A DNA stretch of 64,000 nt from Ilex aquifolium (Eukaryota; Streptophyta; Magnoliopsida; Aquifoliales; Aquifoliaceae), in assembly GCA_951799425.1 (NCBI GenBank), contig OX637394.1:37961001-38025000 (forward strand), given 5' to 3'. Position numbers and translations under genes: made by a program. The notes under the pieces are model-generated. The model had not been told where the DNA came from, ran no database searches, and was given only the letters and a program-made list of their open reading frames with translations. This document shows, piece after piece, positions 2,441 to 64,000 of the stretch (its first letter is position 1; each line of letters starts with the position of its first letter).

Positions 2441-2445
2441 TTGCC

Positions 2446-4541: not shown

Positions 4542-4573
4542 TCACTGAAAAATCAGTATATTTGTAACAAGAA

Positions 4574-20167: not shown

Positions 20168-20199
20168 TTACTGAAGAATCAGTATACTTGTAACAAGAA

Positions 20200-20226
20200 C
20201 TGTCGTTCCCACAAACGGCGCCAAAC
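20200..20226 (-). promoter_or_regulatory. Primer-binding region of element B
   Basis: Right inside the 5' LTR the minus strand reads GTTTGGCGCCGTTTGTGGGA, equivalent to the site in element A. Confidence 0.75.
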
Positions 20227-34289: not shown

Positions 34290-37200
34290 GTAGATGACAA
34301 ATAGAGGAAGAGGACGCGACTAAGGAGGTGGGCGGGATAGCAACCAACCACCACCGCTTTTTGAGCAAAAAACCTTTATGAAGGCTATTGGCACTATGGC
34401 GGCTACCTTTGCCCAAGCTAGCGCCAATTTGGGCCAAGGGGACTCCAGTAACCTCCAAAAGTTCAAGGCACACAAGCCTCTGAATTTTATGGGAGGGGCG
34501 GATCCGATAGTGGTCAACCATTGGTTCTAGCAAGTCGACAAGATCTTAGAGGCTATGGAGATCATCTCCGACACCACTAAGATAAGGCTAGCTGCATTCT
34601 AGCTAGAAGGAGAAGCCCATTTTTGGTGGGATTGGGCAAAGGTCTCGAAGAACTTAGAGGCGATAATATAGGGAGAGTTCCGGGAGCTCTTCATGGGCAA
34701 GTACTTCCCATCGGTTGTTCGACATGCGAAAGCCCAGAAATTCTTGAATTTGAACTAGGGGACTATGACGGTGATGGAATACGTGACTAAGTTCATTGAG
34801 TTAGCCCATTTTTTCGATGATTACGTGGCCACAGACATGGCCAAAGTGAGAAGGTTCGAGGATAGTATGAAATTATCCATCCGGGGGAAGATTGTGGGCC
34901 ACCGTCTACAAGATTTAGACTCAATGGTCGAGACGGCTATGGCCATTGAGAGGGAGGTCAATAACGCAAAGAGCATCCGGGAGGCAGGTTCTAAGGACAA
35001 GAAGAAGGAGGATCAATCATCTTCTTCTAGTTCGGGGAAGAATTAAAAGACTTCTACCCCACAAGAGTTTCAAGGACAGGGCCGCGGCTATCAAGGCCAA
35101 GGCCAAGGTCAATCCTCCCAAGGCGGGAGAAGCTTCAGGACCACCTATCAGGCAAGCCAGAGGATTTGTTACATATGCCACCAATCGGGTCATATGAAAT
35201 AGGATTGTCTTCAGAGACAAGGATCCCAGAGCTATGGGGCATCTCAGTCCCAGCCATCGATGGGGCATACACAGACTTGTTTCATTTCTCCCTACCCCAC
35301 CATGGGCTAGGGAAGCCAATATCAGTTCCAAGGTGTTGCACAGGCCCCTACTACTTCAGGTGCGGAGACTTTGCAATCAGGCTAGATGGGCCAGGGCATG
35401 GGTCGAGGCCGAGGACAAGGCTCACAAGCCAGGACTTCGAGGACCCAGGGGCGTGTCTACGCCATCACACCTCAGACTTAGTCAACAGATCAGTCGGTTA
35501 TTCAGGGTACATTTCTACTCTCTCACTTATGGGAAAGGGTATTATTTGACTTTAGTGCATCACATTCATTTATTTATGCATCATGTGTGAGAGATTTGAG
35601 CTTAGATGTTGAGACCTTGGAAGAGCCATTGTACATGAGTTATCTCCTAAGAGCTAGGGTGAGTATTGATCAGATATGTCGGGATTGTGAGTTAGAGATC
35701 TCGGAGATTCTACTCACCGTGGACCTTATGGTCATGGATATGTCAGAGTTTGATATCATCCCTGGGATTGATTGGTTGACGGCACACCGAGTTGTCATCG
35801 ATTGTGATCGAAAGAGGGTCATTGCCTACACACCGGAGGGTGTTTGTTTAAAATTTCAGGGGGAGAGACATGATGTTTTACCCTAAGTAGTGTATGATTC
35901 TCATTGGCACGGAGAGTTGATGGGTTAACTAGCAAGCCTTACCCTGGAAGACGAGGCGAGATAAGAGTTGGGTCTACCTCGAGTGATTTGTGAGTATGAG
36001 GACGTTTTTTTGGATGAACTATCGGGATTACCTCCACATAGGGATGTAGACTTCATTGTTGAGTTGTACCCCGATACATCGCCTATTTCTATGATTCCGC
36101 ATAGAATGACACCTGCAGAGTTGCAAGAACTAAAGCTCCAATTGTAAAAATTGAGGGACAATGATAAGACCCTTCGGTTATGTATAGACTATCGACAATT
36201 GAATAGGGTTATTATCAAGAATAAGTACCATTTGTCACGGATTGATGAGTTGTTTGATCAGCTAAGAGGGGCGCGGGTCTACTCCAAGATAAATCTCTGC
36301 ACGGGTTACCATCAATTGAGGAATAGGGAGGCAGATATCTCTAAGACAACGTTTAGGACATGGTATGGGCATTTCGAGTTCACAGTGATTCCATTTGGAT
36401 TGACTTCATGGATCTCATGCACAGGGTATTCCAACCCTACCTAGATCAGTTTGTTGTGGTCTTTGTTGATGACATCCTGGTCTACTCCAATTCTGAGGAG
36501 GAGCATGAGGGTCACTTGAGGGTTGTTCTCCAAACCTTGAGAAACCATCAGTTATACGCCAAGTTCAGCAAGTGTGAATTTTGGCTGACGAAGGTGAAAT
36601 TCCTAGGGCACGTGGTGTTGGCTTCATGGGTATCCGTGGACCCGGAGAAGGTTGAGACAGTCATAAGTTGGGAGAGGCTAAAGTCAGTCTTCGAGATACA
36701 TAGTTTCTTGGGATTGGCGGGGTATTACAGGAGGTTTATTGAGGAATTCTCCCGACTAGCTGCACCTATGACTAGACTGACCCAGAAGGAGGTCAAGTTT
36801 TAGTGGGATGACTCGTATGAGAAAGCATTCCAATAGTTGAAGGGGAGGCTTACTTCAGCTCCTATTTTGAAAGTCCTGGAGAGGGGATAGAGGTACACAG
36901 TGTACTGTGATGCCTCCAAGGACGGACTTGGTTTTGTTTTGATGCAGTCCGGGGGGTGGCTTATGGTTCTCGGTAGTTAAAGAGCCATGAGCAGAACTAT
37001 CCCACGCATGACATGGAGTTGGCAGTCATTGTCTTTGCTTTGAAGGCTTGGCACCACTACTTATATGGTGAGCAGTTTGAGGATCACAAGAGCCTAAAGT
37101 ATATCATTACACAGCGGGACCTCAATATAAGGCAACGCAGGTGGATGGAGTATTTAGAGGACTACAACTTCGATTTACACTACCATCCTGGTAAGGCAAA

Positions 37201-37677
37201 CGTGGTGGTTGATGCACTCAGCCGGAAGTCACGGGGAGTCTTGGCCAGTGTGGCTTCTCGGGAGTGGTACATGCTCTAGACTATGGGGCAGTTTGGGCTA
37301 CATTACATAAGTCAGGCTCAGTGCACTTTGGGGAGCTTAGTGGCTATGCCTTCCCTACTTAGCAAGGTGATCAAGTCTCAGGGGCAGGACATAGAGATAT
37401 TGTCAATCAGGGACCGGGTACAGTCGGGTACAAGTGACGAGGGTTGGGCCATTTACGCGGATGGTAGTCTTCGGTTAAGGGAAGAGTTGTAGTTTCCCAG
37501 TCTACGGATCTGAGAGAGGAGATCGTTAGGGAGTTTCATTGCTTCCATGTACATCCAGGTGGCACGAAAATGTACCATGATCTTCGTCGCCAGTACTACT
37601 GGAGTGGGATGAAGAGGCACGTTGGGAACTTTGTTATTCGATGCTTCCCGTGTTAGCAGTTCAAGGTTGAGCACCAG
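34290..37677 (+). pseudogene. Gag-pol region of element H
   Basis: Recognisable parts in order are gag (about 34300-35040, GEAHFWWDWAK), a zinc knuckle (CYICHQSGHMK, about 35170), protease (about 35540-35880, IIPGIDWLTAHR), reverse transcriptase (36150-36800, [20 protein letters not shown]), RNase H (about 36890-37260, [16 protein letters not shown]) and the integrase zinc region (37520-37677). The pattern is that of Tekay chromoviruses. Many breaks. Confidence 0.82.
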
Positions 37678-41701: not shown

Positions 41702-42690
41702 TCACGGGGTGGTGATGTCTGCTTCATCAAGGTCATCATATCCTTCATATGGATCTTGGGCATCCTGGTATGGGTCCAGGGCTGGAGTAACAGATCCGGC
41801 TGAAGAGCTGGGAGATGATGAACTTTGGCTGGCAGCTTGCTGGATCAAATCCTGAGCCATTTTGAGAAGCTCCGCAGCTGACGGCTTAATTGGCTTACTG
41901 GAGTCCTTAGATGAGGACTTCTTCGGCTTCACTTTGGGGGGTCCTGTAGACTCTTTAGGTTTTTCTTCTGGGGAAACCCTTAGAGTAGGCAAGGCCTTCT
42001 TAGCTGGAGTAGAAGGATGTAAGGCAGTATGGACCACTACTGGGGTCGGCACCTTGACAGGAAAGTCCTTCTGAACATCAGCAATTATGGCATCATATTT
42101 AAATCTGGGCCACCATTTGACAGAGAACTGCCTGGCAACATAGTTAGAAATTATTCGCCATTGCCACCTGCAAATCCAAGCAATTTTGTACCTGCAAATA
42201 AATGTTAGCAAATTTGGAATAGGGAATAAGGACTGTTGTTTACTAGGATCATAAGCAGAGCAGAAGTAAGAATACTGATCTTGAAGATCAGCAGGAAAGA
42301 TTTCAAGTATGGGGCCGTGAACTTGCCACCACCTTACAAACCAGGAAGGAATCTGGCTTTTGAAATCTTTATCAAACTGAACGAACCAGGAATGAGTTAA
42401 TGACTCATCCTGATAGAGCATAAGAATAGTTCATGACTCAATGTAGTCATAGTAGTTGAACTTCTTATGGGTTCCTTCGAGATCTCTGAGCAAAGAAGGA
42501 TGAGATCCCCACTCTTTAATGGACAAAATCTTTTTAATAAAAAGAGAGTGATAAATTGTTTTACTGGGGTCATTCTTATCAGGAATAGGTTTGATATGAA
42601 TGGATCCAGTAAGAAATAGGATATCTTGGTAAAATTCAAAAGTCCTTTCCGGGTCATGAGGGACAAAAGTCCATCCTTCTCCAAGATAGG
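41702..42690 (-). pseudogene. Second-frame protein of pararetrovirus D, C-terminal part
   Basis: It contains SWFVRWWQVHGP, FPIPNLLTFICRYKIAWICRW and a Trp-rich IISNYVARQF pattern, then a Lys-, Pro- and Ser-rich region and an acidic end. I know this Trp-rich pattern from unnamed proteins next to caulimovirid polymerases in plant genomes. Function unknown. The N-terminal part lies at 56626-57054, on the other side of element E. Confidence 0.6.
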
Positions 42691-44487
42691 TGACTTGATC
42701 CGAAATGTATACACCCAAGTGCAGGCGGTCAAGTTGTAGTAATAATCTGGTTTGAGTCCAGAGTCGAATCCTCAGGGAACTATGGTTGGTGTTCTTTGAA
42801 GTAAATAGTGAGAAAGACTTGTAATTGGAAATATTATGATTTTGAAGTTGTGGGAAGTTTTGGATAGAATGTAAGATTCTTTCCAATGGGTATTTTGCTA
42901 GACAAAATATAAGATGATTAAATGTAACAAACACTCTTTGGTTCGGGAATCAGAATATGTAGTTGATTATCCGGTGCATTATGTTTATGCTTTATAACTC
43001 AATTAACTCCCGTGTCAACGGCAAATTAATCGGAAGATAGGAATGAAGTGCAATAATGGTGGACATTGAAAGTTTGTCATGAAGAGTTAGTTAGGGTACT
43101 TGCCTTGAATCAATGGATCTTTCCATGTAGGAGTCATCCATTTATCATAGAAAGATCCGTTGATTATACAAAGTACCTTTACTTTGCTAGGTGCATTCAA
43201 TCACCCAAAAATCAAGTGGAGTATAGAACATTTAAGCATAAAGGTGATACACAAACATAATGTCTGGATTAATCTTTTACATATCTATCATCCCTTCCCA
43301 AAGAGTGAATGAGGACTACTCACCCTTCATAGCTATGGTAAAGCTAGAATGATGAATGGTACTCATCCCCAAAAGGTGTTACAAAGTAAAATGCTCAAGC
43401 ACTAAAAGTGAAATGCTTTAAAGTAAAATAGCTAAACAAGGAGCCGATCTTCGACAAAGAATGAGTGAATCACGTTCCACCCTTCACGGCTTTGGTAAAG
43501 CTCTAGAAAAGTGGAAGAGTTTCACTCCTCTAAGGGGAAGAAGGAAGCTCCAACAATGGAAGTAAAAGAAAACAATACTTAAATTAAAAGAAAGCAATAA
43601 ATACTTGGTGTTTAATCCACAACCAAGAGATGATAATACATAAAAGAAAACAACAACTTCTTGGTGTTTAATTCACAACCAAGATCTAATAAAAAGAAAA
43701 CAACAACTTCTTGGTGTTTAATCCACAACCAAGATATAATAAAAACATAAAAGAAAACAATAACTTCTTGGTGTTTAATTCACAACCAAGATCTAAAACA
43801 TAAAAGAAAACAATAACTTCTTGGTGTTTAATTCACAACCAAGATCTAAAACATAAAAGAAAACAATAACTTCTTGGTGTTTAATTCACAACCAAGATCT
43901 AATAAAAAGAAAACAATAACTCAAGAAAGTAAATAAAGCAATAATACTTGAAAGATGATTCAAGAAAAAGATTCAAGACCTTTGGAGTGTTTTCCACTAG
44001 GAAGAAATGTTCTTTACAAGAAAAATGAAACAAGAGAAGGATGCCCATTACAAGCCCCCAAGGGGGGTATTTATAGGCATCCAAATTACAAATATCCTAA
44101 AAGATATTTATCCTAAAAGATATTTAATTACAAATATCCTAAAAGATATTTATCCTAAAAGATATTTAATTACAAATATCCTAAAAGATATTTATCCTAA
44201 AAGATATTTAATTACAAATATCAAGAAGATCTTGATTTACACTTTGATCTCCCTTTGTTTTGAGCTTTAATAATTTACACCCTATGCTTTGATAAGTTGC
44301 TCTCCATGCTTTGATAATTGGCTCCCGTCGTTTTGACGCATAAAAACCTGAAAAGAACAACATTCAATGCATTATCCTTAATTCACACATTAACCCTAAT
44401 TAGATTTATTTTGACTAGTTTAACTTTATTTAATTACACAATTGACCTTTTAATTTAATTACATTTTGCATTAATTAGGGTTAATCA
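42691..44487 (-). repeat. 3' LTR of element E
   Basis: In element orientation it starts TGATTAACCC and ends GGATCAAGTCA. It holds about six units of a 58-60 bp repeat (43570-43925) with the inverted words CTTGGT and ACCAAG, and three 42-bp AT-rich units (44094-44222). Confidence 0.95.
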
Positions 44488-44523
44488 CACCCCCCAACCT
44501 AAACATTACTAGTCCCTAGTAAT
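44488..44523 (-). promoter_or_regulatory. Polypurine tract and hairpin beside the 3' LTR of element E
   Basis: Minus strand: stem ATTACTAG, loop GGAC, stem TAGTAAT, then TAGGTTGGGGGGTG directly before the LTR. This is the plus-strand primer expected for an LTR element. Confidence 0.75.
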
Positions 44524-45289
44524 AAATAACAGCATAACAAAATCACTTTCGTAGATAACACGATTGCATTTAGCATATGCAATAAGCCGTTAAACCCCTA
44601 GGTGATTCCTAGTGGACGAGTTTTGTCTCGTGAAGGTTTTCAGTGAAGCTACCTACAAACTCCATTGTGAAAAAAAATGTGTATATGCATTAGCACCATG
44701 ATAGTTGAAATTTTTTTTTTTTTTTTTAGAACATAGAACACTTCTCTGTCATTGGTACGTAATATACGCAAAAATAAACACTTGTTATATTGGTATTTGA
44801 AATTCCCTATGTAGTAAGAATGATCATTCTAGCAACAAGAATTGTTATATAACAAACACTCCACTTTACTACCTTCCATGGATAGCTTCGATTTCACAAA
44901 CCTCTCGTAGAATGCTCTCAGCAAAAATTCACTCCGATTATAGTGACTTGTCTCTCACGGGGCATGTGATCAGAAGGTGGCCAATCGAAAAATCACATGC
45001 ACAATTAGGAAGGAAGTGAAGTTTACGGAAATAAACTAATCATGTTTGGCATAATCTCATGAAAGAATATTGATGCAATTTAAAGAAATACTATTTACCA
45101 TACCCCAATTTTGATTAACAACACACACATGTAACAGACTTGAGATCAATTAGGGCTTTTCATAGGTTGTAGCGTGGCCAGAGGTCAGTGGCTAATGAAA
45201 TGACGTCAGAGGTTTTCAAAAGCTATCTTTTCATTCTGTAATGTAGCACACTTCTTTCTAGCTTTTCGACATTTTGCCAAGAAATGATT

Positions 45290-45326
<37 letters not shown>

Positions 45327-45936
45327 CATTGATTCTCCTTATCATCGAAAAGTAATCTCCACAGTTTTCCCATTTCTTTGCATTTCTGTGTCATATTAAT
45401 TAATAAGAGTGTGCAAGAAAATTAGATAGCAATGGTGTGTCCAGTATGTTTTCTTGTGGCTTGGTAAATATTTGGGTTTATCAAAGAAGAAATCATACTT
45501 TGAGGGCTCAAACATGGCTGACTAGGGAAATAATTTTGCAGAAAAAATGGCTAAGGCTCAATATCAAATCAAAGATGGCCTAAAATCCTTTCTCAAGTAT
45601 GTGAACATGTATGTGTCGTATGAACAGATTTCTTGGGGATATGTCAACAGATTACCTTAGTTGCGTCAATCAAAGCAAATTTAATGAGATTATTCAAAAA
45701 TAGAGAATGAAAAACCTTACTTGAATAAATGTTAATTATCTCTCAAAAGTATGATAAGGCTCAAAACTTACCATGGTATTCTTTATCATCTCCACTGGTA
45801 ATGTCAGGTTTTTCATGGAATGTCGGTTATATACCGATTCTATTTTTGAGTCTGGTCATTCTTTACCTTAAGAATAACAAATAGCAATATACATTTGACA
45901 TTTAAGCATAGAGAAAATACCATTTTTCAAGGAAGT

Positions 45937-45975
<39 letters not shown>

Positions 45976-46381
45976 AACAAGAAAAATAAAATTCAAAATT
46001 ATAAACATACTCATTTATCTATGAAAATTGAAAGAAGACTAGATGCACCAATTAAACTTGAAAAACTATGGCGTCTCAGGATAAGTCCCTACCCACACTA
46101 CAGGTTGGCATTTTAGGACATTCCTTACTCCGCCCACATACTCATTTATCTATGAGAATTGAAAGAAGATAAAATGCACAAATTGAACTTGGAAATTTAT
46201 GGCGTCTCAGGATCAAATCCCTACCTACACTGTTAGTTGGTAGTTCGGGACGTTCCTTACTCGGCCCATATTTTTATTTCAACAACCAGACTTTGTACAA
46301 AAATATTTTACAAAAGAGTTCAGACCCTTAACCTTCATTCCAAAACACATTTTTCCACAGCTTTGTTTTTATAGTTAAAAT
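44524..46381 (-). other. Non-coding 3' part of the accessory region of element E
   Basis: No open frame of note. It holds sense-strand A tracts (45292-45326, 35 bases; 45939-45971, 33 bases; 44711-44727) and a 131-bp direct repeat. Confidence 0.6.
46010..46271. repeat. 131-bp direct repeat in element E
   Basis: Two units (46010-46140 and 46141-46271) share CTCATTTATCTATGA, ATTGAAAGAAGA and TATGGCGTCTCAGGAT, with scattered differences. The unit ends resemble the frame end of the p10-like genes (TTCCTTACTCGGCCCAT words), so they may be partial copies of that gene. Confidence 0.75.
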
Positions 46382-46807
46382 CTAATCCGAGTCATCGCTT
46401 GGATCTATGTCATTATCAGTGACCCTTCCAACTTCTTGTCGCACATAACTTGTAAGTCCCGGACTGGCATAAGATGGTGTGTCAGGATAATCCTTACTCA
46501 GCCCATACACTATCCAGTTTAATCGATCGGTTGCACGACCCGAAATTGGTTCAGAACACTGATTATGTTTTTTCATATGAAATATCCTGCCACAATGGTA
46601 ACAAGCACCCAGTCGTTTGGAACGACGATGTTTAGCAAAATTGCTTCTGCCACACAATGGTTGTTGTTGTTTCTCTCGGATCTCAATTTTTCTCATATCC
46701 CTTGCTTTTCTCATTATCACAGCATGCACATCAGATGGGAAAATGCGTAGAACTCCTAGACTAAACCAAAAAAGTTTAGGATCCATGCTTGCTAAGACTA
46801 AAGACAT
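46382..46807 (-). CDS. p10-like zinc-finger protein, copy 2 (element E accessory gene)
   Basis: A 141-residue frame. A hydrophobic N-terminal helix (LFWFSLGVLRIFPSDVHAVI) is followed by a basic stretch, then CGRSNFAKHRRSKRLGAC and a CX2CX4HX6C pattern at C69, C72, H77 and C84, the block CSEPISGRATDRLNWI, and an acidic end (SDDSD). Order and spacing (GRS-x-FAK-x-RR, Cys cluster, ISG, DRL, acidic end) resemble vitivirus p10 and, more distantly, carlavirus nucleic-acid-binding proteins, which bind RNA and can suppress silencing. That comparison is from memory. About two thirds identical to copy 1. A role in nucleic-acid binding is inferred. Confidence 0.75.
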   Translation of the reverse strand: MSLVLASMDPKLFWFSLGVLRIFPSDVHAVIMRKARDMRKIEIREKQQQPLCGRSNFAKHRRSKRLGACYHCGRIFHMKKHNQCSEPISGRATDRLNWIVYGLSKDYPDTPSYASPGLTSYVRQEVGRVTDNDIDPSDDSD

Positions 46808-46916
46808 TCTATCTGGTTCTTTAACGTCTACCAGTCACAAAGACAGTTGAAGCTGCATCCGATGTAATCATGAAATACAGGTACAAATACTAAAAAAAAC
46901 GCGATCCAAAAAAAAT

Positions 46917-46919
<3 letters not shown>

Positions 46920-46949
<30 letters not shown>
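46920..46949 (-). repeat. Sense-strand poly(A) tract of 30 bases before p10-like copy 2
   Basis: An uninterrupted T run on the plus strand reads as poly(A) in the direction of the element. It lies between the 54-residue protein (ends 47022) and p10-like copy 2 (starts 46807). Confidence 0.9.
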
Positions 46950-47021
46950 CAGATCTAAAACTAAAATTACAAATACGAAACTAGAGAAAATATACCAAAA
47001 TACAAGCGGAAGGAAGAAGAT

Positions 47022-47186
47022 TTAGGATGAAACAAACAAATTAACGAAGAAGGAATAAACCCAGAATACATAGGATTGAGGAGGATTATTTGGCAAATTA
47101 TCAGATCTTACTGTAACAGCAATTACAACATAGTCATTGGAGGGCATAGCAAATTCACAAGGAATCTTATAAAGACAAATAGCCAT
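47022..47186 (-). CDS. 54-residue hydrophobic protein (element E), homologous to a module in element D
   Basis: ATG at 47186, stop at 47022. It contains KIPCEFAMPSNDYVVIAVTV and a C-terminal hydrophobic stretch SYVFWVYSFFVNLFV. The copy in pararetrovirus D (41116-40931) is roughly 70% identical over the shared part, and DNA similarity extends upstream to about 47310. The layout (short hydrophobic start, PCEF, end anchor) suggests a small membrane-bound protein. A distant likeness to potexvirus TGBp3 (Pro-Cys followed by a beta-rich patch) is weak and not claimed. Confidence 0.6.
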   Translation of the reverse strand: MAICLYKIPCEFAMPSNDYVVIAVTVRSDNLPNNPPQSYVFWVYSFFVNLFVSS

Positions 47187-47352
47187 GAGAATCACAAGCT
47201 GTAGATATCAAATTTCAAATATATATATAAATGAAATTACAAACAAGCAATACTTACAACACTAGCACTAGTGGGCTAGTGGAGATAAGGTTGTAAGGTA
47301 CAGATCTGTTCATCTGCCGAAACCTACAAACAAAATACAACAATTACTCAAC

Positions 47353-47484
47353 TCAAGGAATATCTGGGTTTCTCTGGAAACTCCTCATCCTAAGTGTGAG
47401 AACACAAAGAGCACCCAGGTACACATACAAACATATAAGACAAATTATTAAACAAAAGACTGGATCGTCGGCGTATATGGTCAT
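47353..47484 (-). CDS. 43-residue membrane protein, copy 2 (element E)
   Basis: ATG at 47484, stop at 47353. It starts MTIYADDPV, has one membrane segment (about residues 9-30) and ends RNPDIP. It shares DDP, the membrane segment and the NPD-x-P end with the 48-residue protein at 48951-48805. Too short for a family call. A single-pass membrane protein is inferred. Confidence 0.55.
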   Translation of the reverse strand: MTIYADDPVFCLIICLICLYVYLGALCVLTLRMRSFQRNPDIP

Positions 47485-48049
47485 GGATTTACAGGGGGTG
47501 AGTTGTTTTTACAGAGAACAGAAAGAACGACGACGAAGAAGAAGAGAAGAAAAAGAAAGAGAAGAAGATAAGGGAAAGAGAAAAGGGGGGAACCAACACC
47601 GGTGATGGTGGAAGAAAAAGAAAAAGGTGGAAGGCCTAATAAAGGCATTCCTCAGATTTTTTTTTTTTTTTTTTAATATAAGAAAGTGTCGGCAGGAGCT
47701 GGCAGGCAGAAGAAAAGAAAAAAAAGAAGAAGAAAGGCAGTGGGAGGCCCCCCCTTTTTTTTTTCTAACTTTACTTTCGGCAGTGTCGGCAGGCGCAATA
47801 ATCGCAGCAGGCGCAATAATGGTGCATAGTAATAAAAATGAGTAGGGTAAGAGAACACCTCGCACTTGAGCTTTGACTCATGCACCAATATCTGAAACTA
47901 GGAACAACAAAATTATACAACAAAAGAAAGTGATATGCAAAAGAGTTTGTACAGAACATAAAAAAATAAAATAAAATAAAATAAAATAAAATTTACAGAC
48001 TCGGACCTTCAGCTCTCATTCCCAACCTCAGTACACTTTTCCACAGAGG
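47485..48049 (-). other. Simple-sequence spacer between accessory genes of element E
   Basis: Purine-rich and pyrimidine-rich runs give long Phe- and Ser-rich frames that I do not regard as genes. A sense-strand A tract lies at 47657-47674 and a TTTTA-type repeat (minus strand) at about 47960-47992. Confidence 0.55.
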
Positions 48050-48481
48050 TCAATCCGATTCCCCCTCCGTATCTGTGTAAAATGGACAACTAGTAACTCT
48101 CCCAACTTCCTCTCTCACAAATCGGTTAAGCACAGTACCGGAATAGCATGGCGTATCAGGGTAATCCTTACTCAGCCCATGTTTTATCCAGTTTAATCGA
48201 TCGGTTGCGCGACCGGAAATTGGTTCAGAACATTTGTTGTATCTTTTCTCATGAAAGTATCTGCCACACTGTTTACAGGCACCAAGTCGTGTAGCACGAC
48301 GACGTTTAGAATAACTGCTTCGGCCACAGAGGGGTTTCGCTTGTTTTTCTTTGATTTCAGCCTTCCTTACTAATCTTGCTTTTCTCATGATCATGGTATG
48401 TACATCAGATGGAAAAGTACGTAGGACTCCTAGACTAAACCAAAAAAGATTTACATCCATGATTGATACTCTATGACCCAT
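48050..48481 (-). CDS. p10-like zinc-finger protein, copy 1 (element E accessory gene)
   Basis: A 143-residue frame with the same plan as copy 2: hydrophobic helix (LFWFSLGVLRTFPSDVH), CGRSSYSKRRRATRLGAC, CX2CX4HX6C at C69, C72, H77 and C84, then CSEPISGRATDRLNWI, GLSKDYPDTP and an acidic end. About 89 of the first 130 residues match copy 2 without gaps, and the conserved residues are those expected for a binding domain, so both copies look under selection. The zinc pattern differs from the CX2CX4HX4C knuckle in the gag of the same element, so it is not a gag duplicate. Likely an RNA-binding or silencing-suppressor protein of viral type (inference). Confidence 0.75.
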   Translation of the reverse strand: MGHRVSIMDVNLFWFSLGVLRTFPSDVHTMIMRKARLVRKAEIKEKQAKPLCGRSSYSKRRRATRLGACKQCGRYFHEKRYNKCSEPISGRATDRLNWIKHGLSKDYPDTPCYSGTVLNRFVREEVGRVTSCPFYTDTEGESD

Positions 48482-48676
48482 TATCTGGTTTTTTTACGTC
48501 TTCCAGTCACAAAGACGATCAAAACTGACCCACAGATATTATCATTAATACAAGGTACATAATATGAACAGATACAACAATAAAAACAAAAAAAAATTTA
48601 CAGAAAATTTTACGGGTTCAACCTGCGCAGATCAACTACTGTAAACTGCAGATCAACTATTGTAAACTGTAGATCT

Positions 48677-48713
48677 CACCCCCCAACCTAGACTGAACAT
48701 TGTCCCCAATGTT
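48677..48713 (-). promoter_or_regulatory. Internal polypurine tract and hairpin of element E
   Basis: Minus strand: stem AACATTG, loop GGGA, stem CAATGTT, then CAGTC and TAGGTTGGGGGGTGAG. It repeats the arrangement beside the 3' LTR (44488-44523). It may mark the ancestral end of the element before the cassette was gained, or serve as a second priming site. Confidence 0.6.
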
Positions 48714-48804
48714 TCGAGTTTTTCGGTTTGTAGAGCTTGAATACGCAGTTAACTGTGGAGATCTGTTCAATCGCCGATGACCTATACCAAAAAAAAAACA
48801 TAGA

Positions 48805-48951
48805 TTAAGCATCTTTGGGGTGGTCTGGGTTTTCATTGGGACAAAAACCCTTGATCATCAGTGCGGCCCGAAGAAGAACAGCCATAAGTAAATAATACAA
48901 ACAAATGTAGATCATGAGAAGGAGGATAGGGTCATCGAAAAATGCAGACAT
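48805..48951 (-). CDS. 48-residue membrane protein, copy 1 (element E)
   Basis: It starts MSAFFDDPI at 48951, with a hydrophobic span of about 25 residues (LLLMIYICLYYLLMAVLL) and a polar end NPDHPKDA. A longer upstream frame exists but is Phe- and Ser-rich simple sequence. The similarity to 47484-47353 suggests a duplicated unit [membrane protein, p10-like]. Confidence 0.55.
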   Translation of the reverse strand: MSAFFDDPILLLMIYICLYYLLMAVLLRAALMIKGFCPNENPDHPKDA

Positions 48952-49103
48952 GGTACTGTTATGGGTTGGATCGTGGTACAGAAGACCAGATGCAGTGGAG
49001 AAGAAGAAGAAAAGAGAAGAAGCAGAAGAAGAAAAAGAAAAGAAAAGAGTAAAGGTGTGGTGAGGAAAAGAAAAAAAAAGAAAAAAAAAAAGCGATGGGA
49101 GCC

Positions 49104-52100
49104 TTATAAAGGCAGTCCATCGTGTCGGGTGTCTGACTGACCCGACCCTTTTTTGTGTCGGCAAGCGTAATCTCCGGAGTGATATCCGGAGATACTTTCT
49201 GGATCCATTAAAAAAATGGTCTCCACATTTTGGACAAAATTCTCCACAAAGGGTTTTAATCTCTGACCATTGACGGTAAAAATGTTACCGTTTGATGGGT
49301 TCTCCACTTCCACTGCCCCATGTTCAAATACCTTTTTAACAATGTATGGTCCAGTCCATCTTGATTTCAACTTACCAGGAAATAGGCGAAGTCTCGAATT
49401 GAAAAGTAGAACCTTTTGATCAGGTTCAAAAGATTTTCGCACTATGTTCTTGTCATGAAAAATTTTCATCCTGGTTTTTGCAATCTTAGCATTTTCATAT
49501 GCTTCATTTCTCAATTCCTCCAATTCATTAATCTGAAGCTTCCGTGACAGTCCAGCCTTGTCTAAGTCAAAATTCATTGCTTTAATAGCCCAGTATGCCC
49601 TATGTTCCAATTCCACAGGCAAGTGACATGGCTTTCCATAGACTAATCGATAGGGAGACATGCCCAAAATTGTTTTAAAAGCAGTTCGGTATGCCCAGAG
49701 CGCATCAGTTAGTCTTAATGACCAATCTTTGCGATCTGGGTTCACCGTTTTTTCCAAAATTAATTTGATCTCCCGATTAGCTAACTCAGCTTGTCCACTG
49801 GTCTGTGGATGATAAGGGGTTGCAATTTTGTGAAAAATCAAGTATTTTTTCATTAAATTCCAGAAGGGACGATTGCAAAAATGAGAACCCCCATCACTTA
49901 TAATGGATTTTGGAATTCCAAACCGAGATAAAATATTTTCTTTTAAAAACTTGATCACTGTTTGATGATCATTATTTCGGCATGGAATTGCTTCAACCCA
50001 TTTGGATACATAGTCTACGGCTACTAAAATGTATAGATAGCCAAAGGAGGGGGGAAATGGTCCCATAAAATCGATACCCCAACAGTTAAAAATTTCGATC
50101 ACCAAAATTGGGTTTAAGGGCATCATGTTTCTTTTTGAAATGTTTCCCAACCTTTGACATCTATCGCAAGTTACGCAAAAAGCATGGACATCGTGGAAAA
50201 GTGTGGGCCAGTAAAATCCACACTGCAAGATTTTTGCAGCGGTTTTTCGAGATGAAAAATGACCACCGCATGCTTCTGAATGACAAAATGTAATTACCTG
50301 TCTACTTTCCTGAGCGGGGATGCAACGTCTTATGATCTGATCCTTACAGTACTTGAATACGTAGGGATCTTCCCAAAAGAAATTGCGGACCTCCCTCAGA
50401 AACTTCTTTTTGTCCATGGGAGTGAAAAATGGAGGAAGTGTTCCGGTAGCAAGGAAATTAGCAATATCAGCGTACCATGGGGTTTCATCAATCCTGAATA
50501 GTTGTTCATCGGGGAATTTTTCATTGATTGGCAGTCCATCCTCATGAAATTCATAAGTTAATCTTGACAGATGATCTGCCACCACATTTTCCACACCCTT
50601 TTTGTCCTTAATGACTAAATCAAATTCTTGGAGCAAAAGGATCCATCTCAAGAGCCTTGGTTTGGCATCTTTTTTTGTAAGCAAAAATTTCAGTGCTGCA
50701 TGGTCAGTAAATACAGTAACAGAAGAACCAACCAGATAAGATCGAAATTTTTCCAATGCAAATACTACAGCAAGTAATTCCTTTTCAGTTGTTGAGTAAT
50801 TCATTTGGGCATCATTTAAAGTTTTACTTGCATAGTAAATCACATGTGGCTTCTTATCTTTTCTTTGTCCCAAAACAGCACCTACAGCATAGTCACTAGC
50901 ATCACACATCAATTCAAAGGGTAGAGTCCAGTCAGGAGGTTGCATTATTGGGGCAGAAATTAACATGCCTTTGAGTTTGTCAAAGGATTTTTGGCACGCT
51001 TCATTCCAGTCAAAAATGACATCCTGACTCAAAAGATGACACATAGGTTTTGCTATGGTGCTGAAGTCTTTTATGAACCTTCTGTAGAATCCTGCATGAC
51101 CTAAGAATGATCGAACATCCTTTACAACCCTAGGAGCAGGAAGATTCCTTATCAAATCAATTTTTGCTTTATCAACTTTCATGCCTTCAGACGACACAAT
51201 GTGACCCAAGACAATGCCTTGATTCACCATGAAATGACATTTCTCCCAGTTAAGCACCAGATTTGCCTCTTTGCATCTCATCAAAACTTTTTCTAGGTTA
51301 GCTAGACACAAATCAAATGAGTCACCATATACCGAGAAATCATCCATGAAAATTTCCAAAAAATTTTCGACCATGTCACTGAACAAGCTCAGCATACATC
51401 TTTGAAATGTTGCAGGAGCGTTACAAAGTCCGAATGGCATCCTTTTGAATGCAAAGGTGCCAAATGGACATGTGAATGTGGTCTTTTCTTGGTCATTCAG
51501 AGCTATCTCAATTTGATTGTATCCGGAATACCCATCCAGGAAACAGTAAAATTCATGGCCTGCTATTCTCTCGAGGACTTGGTCAAGGAAGGGAAGAGGA
51601 AAATGGTCTTTTCTAGTCACCAGATTGAGTTTTCGATAGTCAATGCACATTCGCCATCCTGTGACGACTCGTGTTGGCACGAGTTCATTTGCATCATTTT
51701 TGACTACTGTGACTCCAGATTTCTTTGGTACAACTTGGGTTGGACTAACCCATTTGCTATCGGAGATAGGAAAAATTATCCCTGCATCCAGGAGTTTGAG
51801 CACTTCCAGTCTCACAACCTCTTTCATGTGAGGATTCAATCGTCGCTGCATTTGACGAGAGGGTTTTGAGTCCTCTTCAAGGTATATGGCATGATTACAA
51901 ATTAACGGGCTTATACCTTTCAAATCAGCGATGGTCCACCCAATGGTGCTTTTGTGACTTTTAAGAACTTCAATTAATTGAGCTTCTTGCAAGTCTGTGA
52001 TTTTTGAAGAAATTACCACTGGGTAAGATTTATCCTCACCTAAAAATGCATACTTGAGATCAGATGGGAGCGGTTTCAGTTCAGGCTTTGGTGGCCTGTC

Positions 52101-54704
52101 ACTTGAAGATAGTGGTTTTGTACCACTTGATGAAATTTCTTCAAATTTAGGAGCCCATGTCCCCACATTGAAGGTAGGACACTCAATGGAGTTTTGTTCC
52201 AGAGAGTCAGATGAGTCAGATTTTGACAAAGTTGATTCACTAAGATCCTCACAGAATGAGTCATTCAGATGTGCTTGTATTAATGACTCAATGAAATTTA
52301 TTTCTCCTACCTCCTCGTACTCTCTTGGGTGTTTTGCAATGTCAAAGACGTTCATTTCGAGAGTCATATCCCCAAAAGTCAATTTCATAATACCATTCCT
52401 GCAATTGATTAGTGCATTGGAGGTTGCTAGAAAAGGTCGACCAAGAATGACAGGAATTGGAGTTTCTGAATGAACTTCTGGATGAGTATCTAGAACAATG
52501 AAGTCTACAGGGAAGACAAAATTATCCACTTGAACAAGTACATCTTCAACAATACCCCTAGGAATTTTTACAGATCTATCTGCCAATTGGAGTGTGGTGC
52601 AAGTGGGTTTCAGTTCACCTAAACCCAACTGCTGGTAGACAGAGAAAGGAAGCAAGTTGACACTAGCTCCAAGGTCTAACAATGCTTGCTCAATTTTGAA
52701 ATTTCCAATGACACATGACACAGTGGGGCATCCTGGATCTTCGCACTTTGAAGGAATTTTTTGTTGAAGTAGGGCACTGGCTTGTTCTGTGAAGAAGGCT
52801 CTTTTTTGAACATTTTGGCTTCTTTTGACTGTGCACAAGTCTTTTAGAAACTTGGCATAAGCTGGAACCTGTTGGATTGCATCCAGAAGTGGGATGTTGA
52901 TTTTTACTTGCTTGAAAAGCTCGTAAATTTCAGACTGATTGTTTGCTTTCTGTATGCTCTTGAGTCTATGAGGGAAAGGAGCAGGAATAGAACACGAGGG
53001 TTCTTCTTCCCTTGATGGCTCTGGTTCTTGTTCAATCATGGGATCACAGTCATTTTTTTTTTCAAGTTCTGGCTCACTTAATGGGTTGGCTGGAATTGAG
53101 ACTGGTTTTGGGTCTGGAATCAGCATGTTTCTGATGGACTTGTCAATCTTTTTGCCACTTCTCAATGTGGTGACAGTTTTGGCTTGGTCTTGTGGAGTTT
53201 CCATAGTTGATGGATTTCCCACCTGAAATTGGCCTTGTGGAGGCTTTGGTTGGGCAGGAAATTTTCCCTTCTCATGTGTGCTCATGGACTGGGTCAGCTT
53301 TTGAATGTGGCCTTTGAGATCCTCAAAAGATTGTGTGGTCTGGGCCTTGAAATCAATAAAAGCCTGAGTAGAACTATTGTTATAGCTCATTTGGGTTTGC
53401 ATGAATTGATTCAATGTATCTTCAAGGTTCCTTTTGTGTGGTGGTTGATATGGAGGATATTGTGGAGGTCCTTGAGGTGGTTGTGGTGGCCCTTGTGGAT
53501 GAGGATATTGTGGAGGTCCTTGAGGTGGTTGTTGTGGACTTTGTTGCTGATTCATGGGGGTTGGTTGTGTGTTTCTCCAACTGAAATTTGGGTGGTTCCG
53601 CCACCCTGGATTGTATGTTTCAGAGTATGGGTTGGAGTAAGGCTTGTTGAAATTGGAAATGGCATTTGTTTGTTCCAACAAAACTTCTTTGAATGCCGGA
53701 ATGGTCGGGCATTCCCCAGTAGGATGCCCTGTTAGTGCACAAATCCCACACACTTGTTCTGTGGGAGGGACAACATCAACTTGATGGACCTTTTTCATCT
53801 CTAAAGCTTCAAGCTTTCGAGACAAAGTGGACATTTTTGCTCTAAGATCATCATCTTCTCTCAAGACATACTTACCCCCTTGGAAAGTAGGTGGTTTGGC
53901 TTCTACAGTGGTAGGAGATGCTGAGTCCCACATTTGAGAACTGTCAGATATGGTATCAAAAAAATTGAATGCCTCCTCCAGACTTTTTCCCATGAACTCT
54001 CCTTGAGCCATCATTTCGACAAACTGTCGTAACCTAGTGGGCAAGGAGTCATAGAAAAATCCTACCAAAGTCCAATTTTCAAAAGCATGGTGTGGACAAG
54101 ATTGGAGAAGATCTTTGAATCTCTCCCAGCTTTGATAAAAAGTTTCCCCTTCTTTGATCGAAAAATTCATGATTTGTCTTTTGAGTGTATTAGTGCGGTG
54201 CAGAGGAAAGAATTTTCTGAAAAATTCATTCTGTAGAGCCTGCCAATTAGGGATTGAAAGAGATTTTAAAGAATGTAACCATTGTTTGGCTTTATCCCTC
54301 AAAGAGAAAGAAAACAATTTCATTTTTGTCAATTCAGAATTGTCTTGAAATGTTCCACACACTTCTTCGAAGTCTTTGATATGCAGATACGGATTTTCTG
54401 CATCTGATCCATGAAACACGGGCAATAACTGCACTGTCCCCGGCTTTACAGTAAAGAGGGGAGCATTTTCAGGAAAAATAAAACAAGAGGGGACACTATT
54501 CCTTGTGGGATGTAAGTAATCTCGCAATGTTCGAATGTTGGGTACTTCCCCCTCTCTCACATGATCTTCACCCTGCCTGTCAATATTTGCCATATTGAAG
54601 TTACAAGAATCGGCTTCTGATTTGGGTGAAAGTGGTTCAAGTTGATTTACAGACCCAGAAGATTCAGCAGGCAAATTTTGAAAGAGGCGATTGGTGTCAG
54701 TCAT
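49104..54704 (-). CDS. Gag-pol polyprotein of element E (Athila lineage)
   Basis: One uninterrupted frame of 1866 codons. Gag capsid region about residues 60-260; zinc knuckle CX2CX4HX4C ([14 protein letters not shown]) near 316-330; Gln- and Pro-rich linker; protease DLGAS near 673; reverse transcriptase with [12 protein letters not shown] and [12 protein letters not shown] near 1116; RNase H about 1250-1340 ([14 protein letters not shown]); integrase HHCC region near 1470-1520, core [11 protein letters not shown] and SIISDGG, and a C-terminal domain. It replicates the element through an RNA intermediate in cytoplasmic particles and inserts the DNA in the nucleus. Looks whole. Confidence 0.95.
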
Positions 54705-54804: not shown

Positions 54805-54822
54805 TCCCCGGCAACGGCGCCA
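54805..54822 (-). promoter_or_regulatory. Primer-binding site of element E (tRNA-Asp type)
   Basis: Minus strand TGGCGCCGTTGCCGGGGA, fully complementary to the 3' end of plant tRNA-Asp, the primer known for Athila. Confidence 0.92.
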
Positions 54823-54828
54823 AAAACT

Positions 54829-56625
54829 TGACTTGATCCGAAATGTATACACCCAAGTGCAGGCGGTCAAGTTGTAGTAATAATCTGGTTTGAGTCCAGA
54901 GTCGAATCCTCAGGGAACTATGGTTGGTGTTCTTTGAAGTAAATAGTGAGAAAGACTTGTAATTGGAAATATTATGATTTTGAAGTTGTGGGAAGTTTTG
55001 GATAGAATGTAAGATTCTTTCCAATGGGTATTTTGCTAGACAAAATATAAGATGATTAAATGTAACAAACACTCTTTGGTTCGGGAATCAGAATATGTAG
55101 TTGATTATCCGGTGCATTATGTTTATGCTTTATAACTCAATTAACTCCCGTGTCAACGGCAAATTAATCGGAAGATAGGAATGAAGTGCAATAATGGTGG
55201 ACATTGAAAGTTTGTCATGAAGAGTTAGTTAGGGTACTTGCCTTGAATCAATGGATCTTTCCATGTAGGAGTCATCCATTTATCATAGAAAGATCCGTTG
55301 ATTATACAAAGTACCTTTACTTTGCTAGGTGCATTCAATCACCCAAAAATCAAGTGGAGTATAGAACATTTAAGCATAAAGGTGATACACAAACATAATG
55401 TCTGGATTAATCTTTTACATATCTATCATCCCTTCCCAAAGAGTGAATGAGGACTACTCACCCTTCATAGCTATGGTAAAGCTAGAATGATGAATGGTAC
55501 TCATCCCCAAAAGGTGTTACAAAGTAAAATGCTCAAGCACTAAAAGTGAAATGCTTTAAAGTAAAATAGCTAAACAAGGAGCCGATCTTCGACAAAGAAT
55601 GAGTGAATCACGTTCCACCCTTCACGGCTTTGGTAAAGCTCTAGAAAAGTGGAAGAGTTTCACTCCTCTAAGGGGAAGAAGGAAGCTCCAACAATGGAAG
55701 TAAAAGAAAACAATACTTAAATTAAAAGAAAGCAATAAATACTTGGTGTTTAATCCACAACCAAGAGATGATAATACATAAAAGAAAACAACAACTTCTT
55801 GGTGTTTAATTCACAACCAAGATCTAATAAAAAGAAAACAACAACTTCTTGGTGTTTAATCCACAACCAAGATATAATAAAAACATAAAAGAAAACAATA
55901 ACTTCTTGGTGTTTAATTCACAACCAAGATCTAAAACATAAAAGAAAACAATAACTTCTTGGTGTTTAATTCACAACCAAGATCTAAAACATAAAAGAAA
56001 ACAATAACTTCTTGGTGTTTAATTCACAACCAAGATCTAATAAAAAGAAAACAATAACTCAAGAAAGTAAATAAAGCAATAATACTTGAAAGATGATTCA
56101 AGAAAAAGATTCAAGACCTTTGGAGTGTTTTCCACTAGGAAGAAATGTTCTTTACAAGAAAAATGAAACAAGAGAAGGATGCCCATTACAAGCCCCCAAG
56201 GGGGGTATTTATAGGCATCCAAATTACAAATATCCTAAAAGATATTTATCCTAAAAGATATTTAATTACAAATATCCTAAAAGATATTTATCCTAAAAGA
56301 TATTTAATTACAAATATCCTAAAAGATATTTATCCTAAAAGATATTTAATTACAAATATCAAGAAGATCTTGATTTACACTTTGATCTCCCTTTGTTTTG
56401 AGCTTTAATAATTTACACCCTATGCTTTGATAAGTTGCTCTCCATGCTTTGATAATTGGCTCCCGTCGTTTTGACGCATAAAAACCTGAAAAGAACAACA
56501 TTCAATGCATTATCCTTAATTCACACATTAACCCTAATTAGATTTATTTTGACTAGTTTAACTTTATTTAATTACACAATTGACCTTTTAATTTAATTAC
56601 ATTTTGCATTAATTAGGGTTAATCA
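54829..56625 (-). repeat. 5' LTR of element E
   Basis: 1797 bp, same length as the 3' LTR and no difference seen. A constant offset of 12138 bp holds along the whole length. Confidence 0.95.
56205..56350 (-). promoter_or_regulatory. LTR promoter of element E: TATA box and six AATATCT sites
   Basis: Minus strand CCTATAAATACC near 56206-56217 is a canonical TATA box. Just upstream, the three 42-bp units carry six AATATCT words (at about 56240, 56256, 56282, 56298, 56324, 56340), the core of the evening element bound by CCA1/LHY and RVE proteins. Regulation by the clock is inference. The same array is at 44102-44208 in the other LTR. Confidence 0.6.
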
Positions 56626-57405
56626 ATAGGCTTTAAGAAGAATTTGGATATCATTAATGTGAGCATGGGCAGGCTCAATAGCAAAGACATTATGAAAATT
56701 GGGCTTGTCAATATATTCTGCCTTTGGGCCTTTTAGGGTTGGTCCATGGCGATAATAGGGATTAACAAGTAGGGTAGAATCTGGTGGAGGCATTTGGGCC
56801 ATTTGGGAGAAAGTAGCAACAGGGACAATAGTGGGCCTGAGATGGTGACTAACTGGTCTACCAAGAAGCTGGAATCTGTTGGCTATTTGAACGGCACTAG
56901 ATGGGCCAGGTAAATGGGCTAAGGCACTTGTTGGGCCTTGGATTTGGGAAATTGGTTTTGGGTTTGGAGGACCCAATGATAATGGTAATTTACGATCTCC
57001 CTTCCCCGGGTTTTTAGAGGAAGTACCGGATTTGTGGGACTTATTGTCCGCCATGTGGTTCCTGCAAAAATTCACGAGTTAGAAAATCAGGAATGCAGTT
57101 ATTACTGCCCTTAATATATTCTATGTCAAAATCAAAAATACTTAAAATAGCTTGCCATCGTGCAAAAATTTGCTTACTAGCAATGTTTTGAACATCTTTT
57201 TCAAGTACGTATTTAGCAGACTTGCAATCAACACGCACAAGAAATTTTTGATTTAAAATATCATCCTGGAATTTTGAGATACACAGGACAATAGCTAGAA
57301 TTTCTTTTTTAATAGTGCTATAATTGGCTTGTGCTTTGTTCCAAATACCGGAATGAAAGCGAAAAATTTGTTCAGGAGAATTAGGAGATTCTCGCTGAAG
57401 GAGAA
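56626..57405 (-). pseudogene. RNase H end and start of second frame of pararetrovirus D
   Basis: 57405-57041 carries ANYSTIKKEILAIVLCISKF, VRVDCKSAKYVL, IFARWQAILS and IPDFLTREFLQ, the RNase H signature of Caulimoviridae. A second frame overlaps its end from 57054 (MADNKSHKSGTSSK) and is Pro-rich. Overlap of the two frames is as in florendoviruses. Interrupted by element E at 56626 and by element F at 57405. Confidence 0.75.
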
Positions 57406-62200: not shown

Positions 62201-64000
62201 GGCGAGTATGTATTGATTACAGAAAATTAAACTCTCTTACTAGGAAAGATCATTTTCCATTACCATTCTTAGATCAAGTCTTAGAAAGAATAGCTGGGCA
62301 TGCATACTATTGCTTTTTGGATGGATATTCAGGCTACAACCAAATTGAAATTGCAATAGATGATCAAGAAAAAACCACTTTTACATGTCCCTTTGGTACC
62401 TTTGCATATAAACGAATGCCATTCGGACTTTGTAATGCACCAGCTACCTTCCAACGTTGCATGTTGAGTATATTCAGTGATATGGTAGAAAGATATTTAG
62501 AAGTCTTCATGGACGATTTTTCAGTATATGGAAATTCATTTCAACTCTGTCTAGAAAATCTAGAAAAAGTTCTCATTCGATGTGAGGAAACAAATCTTGT
62601 CCTAAACTGGGAAAAATGTCATTTTATGGTAACACAAGGTATTGTTTTAGGCCACATAGTCTCCAAAAAAGGAATCGAAGTAGATAAGTAAAAAATCGAT
62701 CTAATAGCAAATCTGCCTCCACCAAAAACAGTAAAAGACATTCGCTCATTTTTAGGCCATGCAGGATTCTACAGAAGATTTATAAAAAATTTTAGTTCAA
62801 TCTCTAAGCCTATATGCAATCTATTATGTCAAGATACATCATTTGAATGGAGTGAGACATGTCAATCCGCATTTAACAAACTAAAAGACATGCTTATTTC
62901 TGCACTTATTATGCAATCTCCTGATTGGTCCTTACCCTTTGAAATAATGTGTGACGCAAGTGACTATGCAGTAGGAGCTGTATTAGGGCAAAGAAAAGAC
63001 AAGAAACCATACGTGATCTATTATGCAAGCAAAACCTTAAATGATACCCAAATAAACTATTCAACCACAGAAAAAGAACTACTTGCAGTCGTATTTGCTT
63101 TAGATAAATTTCGTTCATATCTGGTGGGGTCGTCTATTGTGGTATTTACAGATCATGTAGCCCTAAAATATCTACTCACAAAGAAAGACACTAAACCACG
63201 TCTCCTACGATGGATACTATTACTCCAAGAATTTGATCTTATAATCAAAGATAAAAAGGGAGTAGAAAACGTAGTAGCAGATCACTTGTCAAGATTAAAC
63301 TATGAAATAAAAGAAGAACCAATTCCAATCAAAGAAACATTTCCAGACGAACAACTTTTCGCAATAGCAGAAGTACCATGGTATGCGGATATAGCTAACT
63401 ATCTAGCTACTGGAGCTATACCTCCTAATTACACTAAATCTGATACAAACAAATTCCTAAGGGAAGTACGTAATTTTTTCTGGGATGACCCTTATTTGTT
63501 TAAATATTGTAAAGATCAAATAATAAGGCGTTGTATACCTAATCATGAAATAAATCAAGTAATTCAGTTCTGCCACTCTGAAGCATGCGGAGGCCATTTC
63601 GCTTCAAGAAAAACCGCTGCAAAAATCATGCAGTGTGGATTTTATTGGCCAACACTTTTTAAAGATACACATATCTTTTGTTTAAACTGTGACAGATGTC
63701 AAAGAATGGGAAATATTTCAAAAAGAAACATGATGCCTCTAAACCCTATTTTAATTATTGAAATTTTTGATTGCTGGGGCATCGATTTTATGGGTCCGTT
63801 CCCCCCATCGTTTGGCTATCTATATATTCTGGTCGCAGTTGACTATGTCTCTAAATGGATCGAGGCAGTTTCTTGTCGAAATAATGATCATAAAACAGTG
63901 ATCAGATTTTTAAAAGAAAATATTCTATCTAGATTTGGAATTCCTCGCACCATTATAAGCGACGGTGGATTACATTTTTGCAATAAAATTTTTGAAAACC
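59272..64000 (+). pseudogene. Gag-pol region of element F
   Basis: It starts MSVRSSVGSVNQS. Gag shows [14 protein letters not shown] and the knuckle CEICALSGHPAAEC. Protease, reverse transcriptase ([17 protein letters not shown]), RNase H ([14 protein letters not shown]) and integrase ([11 protein letters not shown]) follow in the order of element E and at similar spacing. A few breaks; the end lies outside the window. Confidence 0.88.

Follow-up and report, generated by a model that had tools for sequence, protein, structure and literature searches.

The 64,000-nucleotide stretch of Ilex aquifolium DNA analyzed here (GCA_951799425.1, OX637394.1, positions 37,961,001-38,025,000, forward strand), hereafter the window, contains a complete long terminal repeat (LTR) retrotransposon, element E, on the minus strand. 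All coordinates are those of the window, in which the element is read right to left. Behind its gag-pol open reading frame (ORF), element E carries two related genes, NABP-I and NABP-II, whose products match the Pfam family Viral_NABP of viral nucleic-acid-binding proteins (NABPs). The explanation favored here, on which we are evenly divided, is an Athila-type element with a duplicated module of a small ORF (sORF) and a Viral_NABP gene, the gene having been captured from a virus by an ancestor and the protein weakening silencing. A fuller account is held only tentatively: the lineage would have taken a silencing suppressor from an RNA virus, duplicated it with a membrane peptide and an expression element, kept it under selection in subfamilies, and now carried it in thousands of copies. 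What the data show is the family match, the position of the genes, their duplication, selection on the protein, a very high copy number, several subfamilies located behind Athila pol, and relatives among public proteins; the viral capture and the effect on silencing are inferred.

The two genes are located as follows.

46382..46807, minus strand: NABP-II, 141 amino acids (aa), Viral_NABP family (PF05515 E 1.3e-12, PF01623 E 5.4e-5)
48050..48481, minus strand: NABP-I, 143 aa, Viral_NABP family (PF05515 E 7.3e-11, PF01623 E 7.3e-6)

Both lie between the gag-pol ORF and the 3’ LTR of element E. An earlier sequence-only reading of this DNA had described them as two open frames of 141-143 residues, about two thirds identical, and as a duplicated gene. 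Both frames are open, and they are identical at 89 of 130 positions (68%, E 3e-69). That reading had also placed C69, C72, H77, and C84 in the order CX2CX4HX6C, and both proteins contain these residues in this order. A wider alignment of 33 rows, picked by similarity to P0001 and P0002 and excluding the fragments P0013 and P0015, retains the order intact in 32 rows and the three cysteines in all 33. Residues 33-80 of P0001 have a net charge of +15.

Profile search, the check proposed with the earlier reading, places both proteins above the curated cut-offs of two families. Viral_NABP (PF05515) gives 42.9 bits for NABP-I and 48.7 bits for NABP-II with a cut-off of 23 bits, and Carla_C4 (PF01623), with a cut-off of 20.9 bits, gives 26.3 bits over 33 residues for NABP-I and 23.5 bits over 48 residues for NABP-II. 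The resemblance to betaflexivirus proteins proposed in the earlier reading holds at the level of the family. The PF05515 matches cover profile positions 109-221 (NABP-I) and 100-210 (NABP-II) of 227, which is the C-terminal half of the model and most of each Athila protein, approximately 110 residues. Within the 33-row alignment, PF05515 is matched by all 33 rows and PF01623 by 29 at E<=5e-5, and both are matched by 33 of 33 at E<=1. Viral_NABP E-values among these members reach 7e-11 to 1e-13, and no further Pfam family is present at E 5e-5 in any of the 33 rows. A superior match to an unrelated plant protein had been named as grounds for abandoning the proposal; among the Pfam matches, no plant gene family is superior.

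A generic zinc-ribbon resemblance, such as that of the ribosomal proteins eL43/L37Ae, is barely credible as the source of the similarity. One public relative is labeled L37AE/L43A, and P0001 alone matches such PDB chains weakly (E 0.005). The 33-row profile, however, gives no PDB chain at E<=0.1, no ribosomal Pfam family rises above its cut-off, and one of the 33 members touches Ribosomal_L37e at E 0.3. Kinship with eL43/L37Ae was dropped when the weak single-sequence PDB matches vanished with the profile search.

The genome was scanned as one 800-Mb assembly, and the best 150 candidates were scored per query, so the lists lean to intact copies; first-look candidate counts overlap among queries and are not copy counts. 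For the NABP-I protein, the best 150 of 4,098 candidates comprise 90 at 100% identity and 60 at 99%, with 0 internal stops. For NABP-II, the best 150 of 4,093 candidates are all 98-100% identical with 0 stops. Because the scored copies are this similar and lack stops, the frames are not chance open frames. The PF05515 scan found all 150 scored of 3,095 candidates above cut-off, three of them with an internal stop, while 0 of 14 control genomes matched in a set that may include no plant. The Carla_C4 model has 130 matches among 150 scored. A further type, type III, was exposed by the public protein P0014, to which the best 150 of 3,844 candidates are 82-94% identical, some with stops. The genome therefore contains at least three NABP subfamilies (types I, II, and III); the whole 64-kb window contains NABP-I and NABP-II as its only NABP frames.

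The position behind pol recurs outside the window. Of 50 loci whose flank could reveal an upstream pol, 43 have the pol C-terminus there in the same orientation as NABP: all 20 of the type I loci and 23 of the 30 type III loci. The type II frame lies within 1.5 kb of flank in 16 of 20 type I loci. Fifteen relatives (P0003-P0017) were found among 5.8 billion public proteins. Two are labeled ‘Viral nucleic acid binding’, one ‘ribosomal protein L37AE/L43A’, and one ‘hypothetical protein’; the others are unlabeled.

Selection on the protein was estimated as the ratio of non-synonymous to synonymous divergence (dN/dS), a check for which the earlier reading had set a value near 1 as an argument against function. 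Between NABP-I and NABP-II the ratio is 0.33: differences affect 44.2 of 92.2 synonymous sites, as compared with 70.8 of 330.8 non-synonymous ones (Fisher p 1.3e-6, with counts rounded). Among the 141 codons, 37 differ at position 1, 27 at position 2, and 51 at position 3. The wider set began with 141 NABP-like frames in the loci and the window, of which 103 were distinct and 64 were kept (125-165 aa, M or L start). Sixteen subfamily representatives have a median dN/dS of 0.29 (range 0.13-0.72, from the 80 of 120 pairs with a usable dS of 0.1-1.5); some of these representatives have decayed, and their inclusion pushes the ratio upward. Within 22 type III copies, the corresponding pooled polymorphism ratio (pN/pS) is 0.23; the within-type sets were de-duplicated by protein, which inflates it. 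Synonymous sites of pol and gag are saturated relative to the neighboring Athila element, so these genes give no ratio and no pol yardstick for NABP. Our reading of these values is that purifying selection would act on the replicating lineages, as expected of a gene useful to the element.

A maximum-likelihood tree was constructed from 35 proteins and midpoint-rooted, with fragments P0013 and P0015 excluded. It is divided into two clades with support of 100/100, type III (16 rows) and types I and II together (19 rows). Within the second clade, type II (8 rows, 87/88) and type I (11 rows, 94/71) have support under the threshold of the tool. Public proteins fall into all three groups, which suggests an old duplication; if these relatives stem from other species, the split between types I and II predates those species. 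The type I protein P0006 and the type II fragment P0015 have the same source, and for both the longest contig is 2,941 bases, which suggests that the same tandem order may exist elsewhere.

The age of the gene within Athila bears on the direction of transfer. The two clades with full support, together with a dS between NABP types that is near saturation (1.8-2.8), describe a gene of long standing and wide diversity in Athila, and its resemblance to the virus profile is distant. Both points would suit a reverse transfer or a third source, in which flexiviruses obtained their NABP from an Athila-like element or from a plant gene. This is fairly unlikely, as the family bears a viral name in Pfam and the Pfam matches include no better plant gene family. 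In either direction, the finding bears on the origin of the carla- and vitivirus NABP genes.

Several results weigh against viral capture followed by a suppressor role. For potato virus H (PVH), a carlavirus, the finger is quoted as CX2CX9CX4C, which is not the arrangement found in the alignment. Because of this difference in finger geometry, NABP-I and NABP-II are filed, on their profile matches, as members of Pfam Viral_NABP and not as carlavirus proteins. Two AlphaFold2 runs produced models of poor quality, with a predicted local distance difference test (pLDDT) of 48 and 54. The best BFVD fold match of the pLDDT 54 model is a carlavirus NABP, that of Coleus vein necrosis virus, at a non-significant E of 0.51; the fold comparison is taken as evidence in neither direction. 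Scans of viral contigs produced 22 pattern matches with a 13-row alignment and 43 with a 50-residue core, 0 of them confirmed as relatives. Seven of the 30 type III loci have no detectable upstream pol, which may be due to decay or nesting. Pooled pN/pS within 22 type II copies is 0.84, and single copies may drift freely; the value also fits free drift of young copies. Finally, the p12 protein of chrysanthemum virus B (CVB) was no silencing suppressor in one study and is reported to act as a transcription factor.

The type II value is also what would be expected if the frames were passengers, that is, functionless sequence left by fossil viral insertions or by duplication. This is highly improbable and already disfavored by the selection test, given the subfamily ratios and the type III value above. 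The DNA of the two units also argues against it. Units I and II align well over NABP (blastn 46474-46844 against 48148-48516) and over approximately 120 nucleotides in front of it, and poorly elsewhere.

Element E, the host of both genes, has the following structure.

56626..56630, unstranded: target-site duplication ATAGG, 5’ side
54829..56625, minus strand: 5’ LTR, 100% identity to 42691-44487 across 1797 bp
54806..54822, minus strand: primer binding site TGGCGCCGTTGCCGGGG, adjoining the 5’ LTR on its inner side
49104..54704, minus strand: gag-pol, single ORF of 1866 aa (Pfam Retrotrans_gag, Asp_protease_2, RVT_1, RT_RNaseH, Integrase_H2C2, rve)
44488..44499, minus strand: polypurine tract (PPT) GGTTGGGGGGTG, immediately preceding the 3’ LTR
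42691..44487, minus strand: 3’ LTR, 100% identity to 54829-56625 across 1797 bp
42686..42690, unstranded: target-site duplication ATAGG, 3’ side

The earlier reading called the element young and set the frames between gag-pol and its 3’ LTR; the identical LTRs and the ATAGG on both sides agree with its youth. With 0 differences across 1797 bp of LTR, the insertion is probably less than about 0.1 million years old, assuming 7e-9 substitutions per site per year. The primer binding site TGGCGCCGTTGCCGGGG is one that we take to be of Athila type. Each LTR contains tandem repeats of a 53-54-bp unit (43582-43972 and 55720-56110). The gag-pol ORF has no second, archaeal-type RNase H among its Pfam matches, its order is gag, protease, reverse transcriptase, RNase H, integrase, and the region from pol to the 3’ LTR is long. 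This domain content fits the description of the Athila clade of Ty3/gypsy elements, including the criterion of the extra RNase H, in the accessible text of PMC6317226.

Gag of element E retains its own CX2CX4HX4C knuckle, as read from the sequence; therefore, NABP is no simple stand-in for the nucleocapsid. This counts against a role as a nucleic-acid chaperone or packaging helper, in which NABP would coat element RNA or cDNA beside Gag, aid assembly, strand transfer, or nuclear import, and have no action on silencing. Such a role is possible but unlikely. It is consistent with the basic core (residues 33-80) and the conserved finger, and with the placement of the gene immediately after pol within a single element. 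The cysteine-rich protein of barley stripe mosaic virus (BSMV), which belongs to a different family, is reported to associate with virions in a Zn-dependent manner (PMC11213338). The family that is matched, however, consists of viral accessory proteins, which in the accessible literature are described as pathogenicity factors and suppressors.

Sequences other than the NABP genes are repeated or shared between the two units and with the 3’ end of the element.

48805..48951, minus strand: sORF-I, hydrophobic, 48 aa (34% to sORF-II; 49% to the same ORF of genome copy L085)
48677..48688, minus strand: inner PPT-like stretch between pol and NABP-I, a 12-mer identical to the 3’ PPT
48487..48516, minus strand: leader of NABP-I (3 mismatches to the 30-nucleotide motif; 0 in 100 shuffles)
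47353..47484, minus strand: sORF-II, hydrophobic, 43 aa (34% to sORF-I)
46815..46844, minus strand: leader of NABP-II (1 mismatch to the 30-nucleotide motif)

One hydrophobic sORF precedes each NABP in element E. The two are related to each other (pairwise E 2e-5), and sORF-I is related to the same ORF of L085 (pairwise E 2e-9). Because each NABP copy is preceded by a hydrophobic ORF, the duplicated unit is, as judged from the sequence, a two-ORF module of sORF and NABP. A motif-based search of the loci identified 70 sORF-like ORFs with 22 distinct sequences, in loci that may overlap. A hydropathy filter found no such ORF within 1.3 kb upstream in 27 of 30 type III loci. Neither sORF-I nor sORF-II has a Pfam family above cut-off, and they are possibly a small membrane protein. 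Constraint on the sORF appears weak or unproven, because dN/dS is 0.38-1.08 over few sites (six pairs of four representatives).

Among 98 full-length frames, with all types included, 96 have the leader CGTCTTTGTGACTGGCAGACGTTAAAGAACCRGATA, approximately 38 nucleotides in length, ahead of the NABP start, at a distance ranging from directly adjacent to approximately 60 nucleotides. The leader is present in 100 of 105 loci (L001-L105), and its columns average 91% identity across 15 selected rows. The 30-nucleotide motif was taken from these same loci, so its two window matches against 0 in 100 shuffles are no independent test. NABP types with nearly saturated synonymous sites still have the leader in common. 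Its possible identities are a promoter, a signal for splicing or translation, or the terminal part of a mini-exon. A splice site was considered and rejected, as the AG is not kept in all copies and there is no long conserved upstream frame. No compensating changes in a hairpin were seen, judged by eye only. Another reading of the block is that a short frame ends there (VFVTGRR-stop), some of the changes falling at third positions.

A loose pattern finds a PPT-like stretch upstream of NABP in most type I (19 of 20) and type III-like copies (21 of 25), in fewer type II copies (10 of 33), and in 0 of 1 other copy. The inner stretch may mark where the element once ended on its 3’ side, prior to the capture, or may act as a central PPT.

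Plant small-RNA machinery silences retrotransposons and acts against viruses. The favored explanation, viral capture with a role against silencing, proceeds in the following steps. An ancestor of these elements would, most likely, have acquired the NABP gene from a flexivirus-group virus with a plus-strand RNA genome. Template switching in reverse transcription is a possible route, and a plausible one because other retrotransposons are reported to have acquired RNA-virus sequence (PMC4686597, PMC5177903). The protein would bind element-derived or small RNAs, chiefly through its basic stretch, and weaken post-transcriptional silencing, so that more element RNA would reach translation and reverse transcription. 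The conserved leader would probably be a cis element for NABP expression, from a spliced or internally started mRNA.

The earlier reading had attributed both RNA binding and silencing suppression to the viral relatives. Nucleic-acid binding and suppression are reported for some carlavirus and vitivirus proteins; suppression fails for CVB p12 in the one assay mentioned above. The cysteine-rich proteins (CRPs) of PVH and potato virus M (PVM) are reported to suppress local silencing. A carlavirus CRP is described with an Arg-rich nuclear signal beside its finger, and as a pathogenicity determinant and suppressor. The p10 protein of grapevine virus A (GVA) is a reported suppressor with Arg-rich and zinc-finger units, and changes to its cysteines are reported to have left binding unaffected. 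The transcription-factor activity reported for CVB p12 is the model for another function, that of a nuclear regulator switching on LTR or host genes. The Arg-rich stretch is compatible with a nuclear signal, as for the carlavirus proteins. Such a regulator, proposed by analogy, is nevertheless distinctly unlikely. Judging by the family, we think silencing suppression the most likely function, RNA chaperone next, and nuclear regulation third. The analogy with viral proteins suggests that a jumping gene may have borrowed a virus-type weapon against silencing.

Extra 3’ genes of plant LTR elements are well known, and the NABP family has reported silencing suppressors. With an NABP that is abundant, duplicated, and selected, active anti-silencing proteins of plant transposons become a directly testable question.

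The remaining sequence was also surveyed. No Pfam match to an env-like or Transposase_32 gene was found in eight scanned ORFs, the two sORFs, and the two NABPs; the remaining frames between pol and the LTR were only listed. Rfam gave five matches at E<=1 in 44488-49300, all far under their gathering scores. Open frames without a Pfam match flank element E on the same strand (41702-42421 and 56623-57075, minus strand), and element E may have inserted inside a gene of another element. A second Athila element occupies 59272-64000 (plus strand) and runs off the window edge, with a gag-pol approximately 69% identical to that of element E. A type III NABP is located approximately 1 kb beyond the edge (G000:C4:38026077-38026412) and, from its location near the expected pol end, appears to belong to this second element. 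Long direct repeats pair 2440-4625 with 18067-20251 (87%) and 8195-8924 with 20227-20957 (98.5%), and are probably the LTRs of other, nested elements. Gypsy-like pol remnants are found at 15158-17555 (minus strand) and 36175-37225 (plus strand).

The earlier reading knew of no description of such a gene in Athila. None was found, for Athila or any other LTR retrotransposon, in the open-access PMC literature as accessible, with subscription papers, supplements, and preprints outside its scope. Extra ORFs are reported as common in plant LTR elements (PMC7264820, PMC11728184, PMC11963269, PMC6317226). The survey of Neumann et al. (2019) counted extra ORFs only at 250 codons or more, according to its accessible text, and an NABP gene of 134-143 codons could be overlooked because of this floor. 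The Athila NABP resembles the known extra 3’ ORFs of Athila (env-like genes, Athila ORF-1, and Transposase_32) as an extra gene behind pol on the sense strand. Unlike it, none of those described is named as a virus NABP in the text available.

Other retrotransposons offer partial parallels, as far as the accessible text of each source describes them. Sunflower Tekay elements (PMC11728184) are plant LTR retrotransposons with an extra ORF and a proposed RNA-silencing role. Unlike element E, they belong to the chromovirus clade, and their ORF lies on the 5’ side, encodes 402 aa, has a structure like that of plant double-stranded RNA-binding proteins, and belongs to a non-viral family. The insect R1/TRAS long interspersed nuclear elements (PMC4686597) carry an RNA-virus gene in a retrotransposon, with suppression proposed and indirect experimental support. 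They differ from element E in being non-LTR elements of insects, with a plant-virus-like superfamily 1 (SF1) helicase fused to ORF2. An orchid Ty3/Gypsy family with an AlkB RNA demethylase ORF (PMC9289625) has likewise added an RNA-acting domain of a kind also found in Betaflexiviridae, but this AlkB domain is closest to cellular demethylases and is a protein unrelated to NABP. Cucumber CsFRLS1 (PMC3136472) indicates that betaflexivirus sequence is able to enter plant chromosomes; it is part of a replicase and an endogenized sequence, unlike NABP, and no retrotransposon gene.

The nearest comparison is with the Betaflexiviridae NABPs themselves (carlavirus CRP and vitivirus p10). The Athila proteins share with them the profile match of approximately 110 residues, the Arg-rich stretch beside a cysteine finger, and the small size. 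They differ in residing on a chromosomal LTR retrotransposon, in two copies per element, and, compared with the PVH CRP, in the geometry of the finger. The viral NABP is described as the 3’-terminal gene of the virus, and the Athila NABPs are the last genes of the element. Retrotransposons with RNA-virus genes and plant LTR elements with extra ORFs are known from the literature available; apparently new is a Viral_NABP gene in an LTR retrotransposon.

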